DNA of 64,000 nucleotides from Planctomycetia bacterium. Lineage in GTDB: Bacteria; Planctomycetota; Planctomycetia; Pirellulales; UBA1268. The position numbers and the translations under genes were made by a program. Of this stretch, positions 2,798 through 38,122 are shown in pieces (the stretch's first letter is position 1; every line of letters starts with the position of its first letter). The notes beneath the pieces were generated by a model. That model did no database searches, had not been told where the DNA came from, and saw only the letters and a list, made by a program, of their open reading frames with translations. The stretch is taken from NCBI GenBank assembly GCA_026401035.1, contig JAPLNR010000072.1, positions 1 to 64,000 of the forward strand, given 5' to 3'.

Positions 2798-3820
2798 TCA
2801 GGCGGCAGCCCGGGAGAGGAGCGCGGCGACCGACGCGACGACGCGGTCGACCTCGATGCCCCCCATCGCGACGGTGTCGGTCTTGCGCTGTTCCCATGCC
2901 GGCCGCAGCGAGACCGGCGGTTCGACCGCCTGGTGAATCGATCCGTAGGGTCCGTTCCGCTTCGCCGGCACCGGACCGAAGAGTCCGACGCAGGGGGTGC
3001 CCACCGCGGCGGCCAGATGGAGGGGGCCGGTATCGCTCGAGATGAAGACCCGCGCGAGGCGGCAGAGTTCGCCGAGATCGGTGAGGCTCGTCTGCGGCGC
3101 CAGGATCGCGGCGTTGCCGGCGAGGTTCGCGATCTTTTCGGCGGCCGCCCGCTCCTGGCCGCCACCCCAGACCACGATCGATTGGAGTCCATGCCGCTGG
3201 TGGAGCGCACGGGCCACCGCGGCGAACCGTTCCGCCGGCCAGATCTTCGACGGCCAGCCGGCGCCGGGATTGATCATGGCGGGCGCCGCGGTGAACCGCT
3301 GCGTGACGAACCACTGCTGCATCCGCGCATGACTCACGGGCCACCGTGGCATGTCGAACGTGGTCCCCGGCTCATGCACGCCGAGAGCCCCGAGCAACTG
3401 GCAATGACGATCGACGACGTGCGCTGCCGTCGTGACGACGGGATGCGTGTAGAACCGCCAGGCCTGTTCGCGGGATTCGGGCCGGGCGTAGCCGATCCGC
3501 ATGCGACTGCCGGAAAGCCAGGTGGGAATCCCGCTCTTGAGCAGTCCCTGGAGATCGATCGTCACGTCGGGAGCGAAGTCGAGCAGTTGGCGCCGCAGCG
3601 AACGGACAGCGCCGAGCGACTTGAGCCAGCCGCGCGGCAGCCGAAAGAGGTGGTCGATGGCGGGGTGACCGGCGAGCACGTCGCCGGCGCGGCCCTCGAC
3701 GACCCAGCCGATCGTCGCCCGCGGAAAGGCCCGCTTGAGCGCCACCGCCGTGGGCACGCCGTGCAGCACGTCGCCGATGGCGGAGAGTTTGACGATGACG
3801 ATGGAGCGGGGCGCGTTCAT
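2798..3820 (-). CDS. glycosyltransferase family 9 (lipopolysaccharide heptosyltransferase-like)
   Basis: IVIVKLSAIGDVLHGVPTAVALKRAFP ... INPGAGWPSKIWPAERFAAVA ... SSDTGPLHLAAAVGTPCVGLFGP, GT9 motifs. Confidence 0.9.
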   Translation of the reverse strand: MNAPRSIVIVKLSAIGDVLHGVPTAVALKRAFPRATIGWVVEGRAGDVLAGHPAIDHLFRLPRGWLKSLGAVRSLRRQLLDFAPDVTIDLQGLLKSGIPTWLSGSRMRIGYARPESREQAWRFYTHPVVTTAAHVVDRHCQLLGALGVHEPGTTFDMPRWPVSHARMQQWFVTQRFTAAPAMINPGAGWPSKIWPAERFAAVARALHQRHGLQSIVVWGGGQERAAAEKIANLAGNAAILAPQTSLTDLGELCRLARVFISSDTGPLHLAAAVGTPCVGLFGPVPAKRNGPYGSIHQAVEPPVSLRPAWEQRKTDTVAMGGIEVDRVVASVAALLSRAAA

Positions 3821-3825
3821 GGGGC

Positions 3826-3881
3826 GGGGATTTTTTCGCGATGCCGCCGGCGAAGCAAGGCCAGTTTCGCGGAAAATCCCC
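3826..3881. repeat. inverted repeat GGGGATTTTTTCGCG ... CGCGGAAAATCCCC just upstream of the GT9 gene
   Basis: Arms 3826-3840 and 3868-3881 are near-perfect reverse complements. Confidence 0.6.
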
Positions 3882-3922
3882 CTCGGCCATGAAAGCCGTG
3901 ACGACCGCCCTCCGGAAAGTGG

Positions 3923-3940
3923 GACAGGCTTCAGCCTGTC
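3923..3940 (+). repeat. GACAGGCTTCAGCCTGTC palindrome copy
   Basis: Exact 18-mer in context GGAAAGTGGGACAGG. Confidence 0.9.
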
Positions 3941-3979
3941 ATGGCCTCGCCTGTGCTGACAACCCGTATTGGTCGCCGG

Positions 3980-4079
3980 CGGCAGAAGTCTCCTTCGCGC
4001 TGCATTTTCTCCGCTGACGACCTACGGAGCTGCTGACCTCAGGAGGTCGAAAATGCAGACGCTCGTCGAGCTTCAGCCG
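3980..4079. ncRNA. 100-nt three-stem structured intergenic element, copy A (RNA or folded DNA repeat; strand unknown)
   Basis: P1 CGGCAGAAG(3980-3988)/CTTCAGCCG(4071-4079); P2 CTGCATTTTC(4000-4009)/GAAAATGCAG(4049-4058); P3 CGACCT(4018-4023)/AGGTCG(4044-4049); same architecture as copies at 17662 and 38023. Confidence 0.65.
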
Positions 4080-4135
4080 ACCGCCTCCCCAGCAAGTGGC
4101 TTCACGCAAAACTCGAGCATTCTGCCGGAAAGTAG

Positions 4136-4153
4136 GGCGGGCTTCAGCCTGTC
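4136..4153 (+). repeat. degenerate palindrome copy GGCGGGCTTCAGCCTGTC
   Basis: Context GGAAAGTAGGGCGGGCTTCAGCCTGTC. Confidence 0.75.
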
Positions 4154-4164
4154 ATGCCGGCGGC

Positions 4165-5211
4165 TCAGAGCCCGGCGAGCTGGCAGAGCATCGCGTCGGC
4201 GACCGTCTGCGGGCAGCTCCAGACGAGATAGAAGAGCGACTCGCGGACGAGCCGTTCGGCGGGGTGGCCCGCCACGAAGCCGGCCCCCTTCGAGGCGGTG
4301 AGCGCCGCCTGAGCGGCGCGGATGACGAGGCTGTTGGCGTCGCCGCGGAGGCGGTCGCGGGCTTCCGGGTCGATGCCGTCACTGGCGGCGGTGGCAAGCC
4401 GGGCGGAGAGCGCCAGCGTTTCTGCGCGGAGCCCCGCCGCGATCGGGGCGAGTGCGGGCCGGCCGTCGGCTTCGTGGTCGAGCAGCGCGAGTGCGGCGCG
4501 GCTGCTGCCGAGGGCCAGGGCCGTGGTCGCCAGGCCGCCGGTCCGCACACCGCCTCCGGCCGGGGCGATCACGTCGGCGGGGCGGACGTTATGAAAGGCC
4601 ACGCTCGAGGTGCGGCTGCCCGAGAGCGCGAGCATGTCGAGGGGCGGGGCGATGTCGAGGCCCGGAGAATCGGTCGGCACCACGAAAAACAGTTGCGTGC
4701 CCCTGTCGGTGACGGCACCGGTCACGATCGTGTCGCAGGCATCGGCTCCGGTCACCCACGGGCAGTTGCCGGTGAGCCGCCAGCCGCTGCCGTCTTGGGT
4801 GGCACTGAGGGCCGGCGCGGTCAGGTGGCGGCGGCTTGTCGTGAGGTGCGAGATGCCGACGGTGGTGAACGACTCGCCGCGGGCGAGCGGCGGCAGCCGT
4901 ACGGCACGAACATTCGGGGCACCGGCGGCGATGATCCGGCAGGCGCTCGCCCATTGCGTGAGGGCAAGCGCGGTCGTCAGGCAACTCGTGGCGATCGCGG
5001 TGAGTGCGCCCAAGATCGCGGGCTCGTCGGCCGCCGTGCCGCCGCAGTCGGCGGGCAGGAAGGCGGCGAGCACGCCGGAGCGGGCGAGCAGCGAAAATCC
5101 GCCGCTCTGCCAGGGGCCGTCGCGGCTGGTCGCTGCCGAACGCTCGGCGAGTGCTGCACAGAGGGAATCGAGCGCGGCTGCGTCTGGTGGCAACCGATCT
5201 GAGGAAATCAT
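4165..5211 (-). CDS. acyl-CoA dehydrogenase family protein
   Basis: GWRLTGNCPWVTGADACDTIVTGA, LALSGSRTSSVAFHNVRP, acyl-CoA dehydrogenase middle and C-terminal signatures. Confidence 0.8.
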   Translation of the reverse strand: MISSDRLPPDAAALDSLCAALAERSAATSRDGPWQSGGFSLLARSGVLAAFLPADCGGTAADEPAILGALTAIATSCLTTALALTQWASACRIIAAGAPNVRAVRLPPLARGESFTTVGISHLTTSRRHLTAPALSATQDGSGWRLTGNCPWVTGADACDTIVTGAVTDRGTQLFFVVPTDSPGLDIAPPLDMLALSGSRTSSVAFHNVRPADVIAPAGGGVRTGGLATTALALGSSRAALALLDHEADGRPALAPIAAGLRAETLALSARLATAASDGIDPEARDRLRGDANSLVIRAAQAALTASKGAGFVAGHPAERLVRESLFYLVWSCPQTVADAMLCQLAGL

Positions 5212-17588: not shown

Positions 17589-17661
17589 GGCATCGATTGT
17601 ACCGATGGAGCCTGGGGGCCGCTTCATTCACAAGCGGTCTGCCACCCGCATTGGTCGCCGG

Positions 17662-17761
17662 CGGCAGAAGTCTCCTTCACGCTGAAATCTCTCCTTTGAC
17701 GACCTACGGAGCTGCTGACCCCAGAAGGTCGAGATTTCAGACGTTCGTCGAGCTTCCGCCG
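17662..17761. ncRNA. 100-nt three-stem structured intergenic element, copy B
   Basis: P1 17662-17670/17753-17761; P2 CTGAAATCTC(17682-17691)/GAGATTTCAG(17731-17740); P3 17700-17705/17726-17731. Confidence 0.65.
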
Positions 17762-17823
17762 ACCGGCTCCTCAGTATCGGGAGGTGGAAAAGGCAAATGG
17801 TGGCTGTCACCTTTTTCGCTGCA

Positions 17824-38022: not shown

Positions 38023-38122
38023 CGGCAGAAGTCGCCTCACACGGCATCTTCTCCTTTGACGACCTACGGCGATTCATGCCCCAGAAGGTCGAAGAAGCCT
38101 CATGTTCGTCGAGCTTCTGCCG
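38023..38122. ncRNA. 100-nt three-stem structured intergenic element, copy C (divergent)
   Basis: P1 CGGCAGAAG(38023-38031)/CTTCTGCCG(38114-38122) perfect; P2 GGCATCTTC(38043-38051)/GAAGAAGCC(38091-38099) 8/9; P3 38060-38065/38086-38091. Confidence 0.65.

Follow-up and report, generated by a model that had tools for sequence, protein, structure and literature searches.

A family of structurally conserved hairpin repeats dispersed in genomes of one planctomycete family

Three copies of a long hairpin in the window

The stretch of planctomycete DNA analysed here (the window, 64,000 nucleotides) contains three copies of a long hairpin, designated A, B and C. Copy A is flanked by a glycosyltransferase-9 gene and by a gene resembling acyl-CoA dehydrogenase; the neighbours of copy B are uvrC and a phosphoglucomutase gene, and copy C adjoins pheT. 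The features are listed below in window coordinates; bit scores are those of the covariance model R1, described in the next section.

3962..4095, minus strand: copy A (subfamily I), whole modelled repeat; R1 160.3 bits
17644..17777, minus strand: copy B (subfamily II), whole modelled repeat; R1 161.4 bits
38003..38140, minus strand: copy C (subfamily III), whole modelled repeat; R1 119.8 bits
3980..3988: P1 arm of copy A, plus strand CGGCAGAAG; from the sequence and from pairing in the alignments of matches from the window's genome and its relatives
4071..4079: P1 partner arm of copy A, plus strand CTTCAGCCG; from the sequence and from pairing
4061..4071, minus strand: tandem G·A internal loop of copy A, conserved 5' half, GCTCGACGAGC; from covariation of the central pair
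3985..3999, minus strand: tandem G·A internal loop of copy A, conserved 3' half, CGCGAAGGAGACTTC; from covariation of the central pair
4000..4009: P2 arm of copy A, plus strand CTGCATTTTC; from compensatory changes
4049..4058: P2 partner arm of copy A, plus strand GAAAATGCAG; from compensatory changes
4010..4048: apical part of copy A, differing among subfamilies in sequence and pairing; its P3 stem is without covariation support
3919..3940, plus strand: GTGG-tagged REP-like palindrome adjoining copy A; in subfamily I, the repeated unit often includes it
4132..4153, plus strand: GTAG-tagged REP-like palindrome on the other flank of copy A, in the same orientation as the first

The original prediction described hairpins at 3980-4079 (A), 17662-17761 (B) and 38023-38122 (C), with stems P1 and P2, a P1-to-P1 length of exactly 100 nt in each and three compensatory double changes in P2 between copies A and B; all of this is borne out by the sequence. 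The fixed length it assumed is, however, not a property of the family. The repeat is longer than 100 nt, being modelled here at about 134 nt with an outer stem added, and its matches in G000, the genome that contains the window (3.77 Mb in draft contigs), measure 63-161 nt, mostly 133-138 nt.

Exact matches of the conserved 13-mer TGACGACCTACGG occur in the window at the three copy sites only, and six matches with at most two mismatches are found there against 1.39 expected. An unfiltered covariance-model search of the window gave 120-161 bits for the three copies and at most 22 bits for everything else.

The window also contains eight palindromes of the type GACAGGC(TTCA/TGAA)GCCTGTC (at 2749, 3923, 4136, 21124, 21151, 21178, 29731 and 29770). 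Most of them are tagged with GTAG or GTGG (or the complementary CTAC); they make up a REP family of the GTAG kind, and one is located directly 3' of the ligA stop codon.

Family size and distribution

A 124-nt query detected 46 full or partial matches in G000. To build the covariance model R1 (134 positions, 32 base pairs), 33 copies were aligned in the orientation of the window minus strand. The search that the original prediction proposed for such a model found further copies both in this genome and in other planctomycetes: with a limited number of candidates scored per genome, so that all counts are lower bounds, R1 gave 117 matches in G000 at E<=0.001, and matches in 28 of the 60 genomes made up of G000 and its relatives. 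All 28 belong to the planctomycete family of G000, in which 37 genomes were searched, and no R1 match was obtained in the 23 genomes from other families of the order. An exact 26-nt core pattern was present in 19 stretches of species-representative genomes, mostly titled as planctomycete MAGs, and gave no match in viral contigs.

The comparison with Rfam suggested by the original prediction returned no known family. At the gathering threshold, Rfam (release 15) has no match in the window, and six loci representing different subfamilies gave nothing at the element at E<=5. The open-access literature searched does not describe these repeats. Within the reach of Rfam and of that literature, the repeat family is previously undescribed; it is real and structurally conserved.

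Conservation of the fold

On the minus strand of the window, the repeat can form a long hairpin, with P0 as its outer stem, a tandem G·A internal loop between P1 and P2, and an apex that varies. In an alignment of 100 matches from G000, fitted to the model and thus favouring the structure, 90.6% of the pair cells hold standard pairs, against 81.5% after shuffling and 36-47% with slid partners; double changes affect 24 of the 32 pairs, and the covariation score reaches 0.226 against 0.089. In the 55 matches from relatives, aligned with the same bias, double changes are found in 26 of 32 pairs and the score is 0.404 against 0.131. Counted by parsimony on a FastTree tree, compensatory double changes number 61 and affect 23 of the 32 pairs; in the tree controls, sliding the partners left 1-7 such changes, and re-dealing them left 3.9 on average and at most 14. 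Selection on the fold, which the original prediction had proposed from three copies, is strongly supported now that many more copies, a large covariation signal and the lack of any Rfam match can be added to it. Covariation could arise by template switching at the DNA level between the arms of the hairpin.

Stems P1 and P2 are separated by a conserved loop, 5' TCGAxGAGC facing 5' GCGAyGAGA. This loop can be interpreted as a single Watson-Crick pair, x-y, with two tandem G·A pairs on either side; x-y is C-G in 73 of the 119 copies parsed, G-C in 44, T-A in one and broken in one. The strand modelled by R1 (window minus) is opposite to the one originally presented. Among 92 copies, it is the more stable strand in 81 under RNA parameters and in 83 under DNA parameters, and the choice of strand is based on these folding energies together with the G·A loop. 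The ratio of G·U to A·C combinations (113 to 95 in G000, 88 to 39 in relatives) is dominated by two columns and is weakly informative on this point. The structure that RNAalifold derived from a MAFFT alignment of the plus strand was poor. The third stem of the original prediction, P3 (CGACCT/AGGTCG), fared less well than P1 and P2: it is nearly invariant in subfamilies I-III, where it displays no double change and has two rival pairings, and it is absent elsewhere.

Subfamilies and modular architecture

Copies A, B and C represent types I (P2 CTGCATTTTC), II and III respectively, and types IV and V have TTGGAGTTTTCGC as P2 and a different apex. Some copies carry a hairpin insertion of about 23 nt in one P2 arm. 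Subfamily I is near-identical in sequence and lineage-specific; a GTAG-type palindrome is often found at a fixed distance from its copies, so that the amplified unit in this subfamily probably includes the REP-like element.

The outer arms fall into at least three sequence classes, each of which pairs with itself. They are also shared by a second structured repeat, in which the inner domain is different (GGTGACATGCTCGG...GCGTGCCCCCGACC) and which was located at three loci of G000 (L290, L294 and L302) and seven loci of relatives (L050, L057, L062, L067, L069, L070 and L054). At another locus of G000 (L292, C69:23784-23845), both outer arms run straight into each other with no core between them, as if the inner domain had been lost. 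Two or three copies follow one another in tandem at L163, L170, L176, L042 and L031, with a period of about 109-200 nt. An autonomous relative was sought as two widely spaced arms, and the loci examined yielded truncated or half copies only.

Genomic context and empty sites

Gene contexts were assigned with a codon-score gene caller of our own on draft contigs, by which the copies of G000 are distributed as 41 convergent, 26 co-directional on the same strand, 23 co-directional on the opposite strand and 2 divergent. The excess of convergent over divergent contexts (41 against 2) is highly significant (p ~1e-10), and the co-directional contexts reveal no strand preference. Copy B, one of the two copies called divergent, owes this label to a miscalled right neighbour; Pfam supports a minus-strand phosphoglucomutase gene at this position, which would make B co-directional. 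The trend is weaker in relatives, with 17 convergent, 15 same-strand and 6 antisense co-directional, and 7 divergent contexts.

At two loci, comparison across species places copies A and B in stretches that are missing from related species. The neighbours of site A are kept in G001, G002, G003 and G005, where about 60-110 bp stand in place of about 330 bp in G000, and site B is reduced to about 43 bp in G001, G003 and G005 against 262 bp in G000. No R1 match was obtained at either site in the same-genus relatives examined. The additional DNA of G000 at sites A and B also holds other small palindromes. The termini of the element are not of the TA...TA type, and the flanks are too divergent between species to place its ends or a target-site duplication.

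Small inverted repeats flank copy B at 17606-17640 and 17797-17820, within the stretch that relatives lack.

Alternative explanations

Strong covariation alone cannot tell an RNA gene from a mobile hairpin. A structured RNA family with many paralogues, whose folded minus-strand transcript would either act in trans or, as part of 3' UTRs, stabilise or terminate mRNAs, would agree with the covariation, with the conserved unpaired and G·A nucleotides of RNA type, with the strand asymmetry of the fold, with the location of copies behind genes and, in relatives, with the surplus of same-strand over antisense contexts (15 against 6). This explanation is nevertheless rather unlikely: the co-directional contexts of G000 are balanced (26 against 23), sites A and B are not kept in the genus, copy numbers show bursts and tandem arrays, Rfam has no matching family, and no T-run terminator could be seen by eye beside the element. 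A coding origin, either as a gene fragment or as a translated insertion peptide, had been named in the original prediction as a result that would count against it. It has next to no probability, even if subfamily III reads by eye as an uninterrupted peptide and 3 of 100 copies lie within predicted ORFs, since no frame is open in all copies (the best in 69 of 81, in a GC-rich genome), length differences are not multiples of three and substitutions follow base pairing.

A mobilising enzyme was sought among Y1_Tnp, integron integrase and reverse transcriptase proteins and none was found; in the genomes examined, the content in Y1_Tnp, integron integrase and RVT_1 does not track the number of elements. 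The genomes' content in these three kinds of enzyme does not account for the mover. Mobilisation as a REP/REPIN element, by a REP-associated tyrosine transposase (RAYT), is improbable. Many element-rich genomes have no Y1_Tnp match and Y1-rich genomes exist without the element; G000 itself has one weak, partial Y1_Tnp match, and the best element match at the 13 Y1_Tnp loci checked was a single one of 19.7 bits. A GTAG-type palindrome does occur within 200 nt of 37 of 100 copies, counted over all subfamilies together, and often at a constant distance of 21 or 31 nt, and the gene-context bias resembles that of REPs (PMC3733652), but the majority of copies lack such a neighbour and no GTAG/CGTC terminal tag was seen at either end of the copies inspected. 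An integron attC-like site, folded as single-stranded DNA and recombined by IntI, would match the folded single-strand architecture and the IntI match of 443 bits in G000. It is very improbable, as the repeats resident beside IntI, attC-like in look, are quite different in sequence, the copies are scattered between genes rather than set in cassette arrays, and element number does not follow IntI: IntI-positive genomes G013, G016 and G042 contain no copy, whereas G003, G012, G014 and G015 contain 29-41 copies with no strong IntI match. A SINE-like origin through reverse transcriptase was also considered and rejected, with no RVT_1 match in the element-rich genomes G012, G014, G015 and G023.

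Interpretation

The 117 matches in G000, the near-identity of subfamily I, the tandem arrays and the exchangeable inner domains are best read as the record of a mobile repeat. The original prediction had offered an RNA element or a hairpin-forming mobile DNA unit; the mobile unit is retained, as the best fit to lineage-specific insertion at two sites, to more than 100 dispersed copies and to the lack of strand preference, and a dedicated structured RNA gene is the less likely reading. The repeats are thus probably, if not securely, non-autonomous mobile interspersed elements of about 130-155 bp, of the ERIC/BIME-like kind, amplifying in the genomes of one planctomycete family.

Such a repeat would amplify within genomes without a mover of its own. 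The factor that mobilises or maintains it would recognise the folded single strand, either as single-stranded DNA at replication or as a transcript, and the G·A loop is the probable binding site predicted for this factor. Copies may persist mainly behind genes because insertions in promoters would be selected against. Alternatively, an RNA function exerted after insertion could account for the conservation of the structure.

Small bacterial repeats are usually recognised by their sequence. The family described here keeps its structure through a large sequence turnover across one bacterial family, with many independent compensatory changes. It is conceivable, as a tentative proposal, that it represents a new class of mobile elements in which the folded single strand is the unit of selection, a host or element factor recognises the conserved tandem G·A loop, the stems and even the inner domain are replaceable, and the common outer arms serve as a chassis. 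The identity of the recogniser becomes a testable question, since a specific binding partner is predicted from the conserved G·A loop.

Comparison with known systems

Among known systems, the element would work most like ERIC and BIME repeats. Bacterial MITE-like palindromic repeats include ERIC/IRU, NEMIS/Correia, RUP, YPAL and RPE (PMC2229807). As in ERIC-type repeats, which are non-coding and intergenic, measure 100-170 bp and occur in tens to hundreds of dispersed copies, the element is a long imperfect hairpin with size variants and no transposase of its own, and empty sites are known for some of these repeats as well (PMC2229807). It is a non-autonomous, dispersed intergenic palindrome of less than 200 bp, and relatives lack the insertion at the orthologous sites A and B. 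Unlike ERIC-type repeats, with sequences compared through Rfam only, it is GC-rich, it keeps its pairing through large sequence turnover in several stems, it has a conserved tandem G·A loop and exchangeable inner domains on common outer arms, and it was found in only one planctomycete family among the genomes searched.

With REP, BIME and REPIN elements (PMC3733652), it shares a palindromic nature, mosaics with other repeats, convergent or unidirectional contexts and a location downstream of genes. It differs from them in length (about 130 nt against 20-40 nt), in the lack of a terminal GTAG/CGTC tag and in having no link with RAYT. Membership of the REP family was rejected on length (about 134 nt), tag and Y1_Tnp association, the location being in agreement.

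Integron attC sites are long hairpins with unpaired bases, of which one strand folds better than the other. The element resembles them in both the long hairpin and the better-folding strand, but forms no cassette arrays and has no link with IntI. Assignment to attC was rejected: R''/R' core sites (RYYYAAC...GTTRRRY) beside IntI were not found for the element, and the resident integron repeats are distinct from it. A stringent attC scan, an insensitive one, found none in four integron loci.

The integron of G000 is located on contig C47:135-4326 (L279). Its integrase (TIGR02249, 443 bits) is encoded at 3385-4326, and it includes five repeats of 50-84 nt with core ends of the GGTTAGGC/GGTTCGC type, spaced by 402-936 nt.
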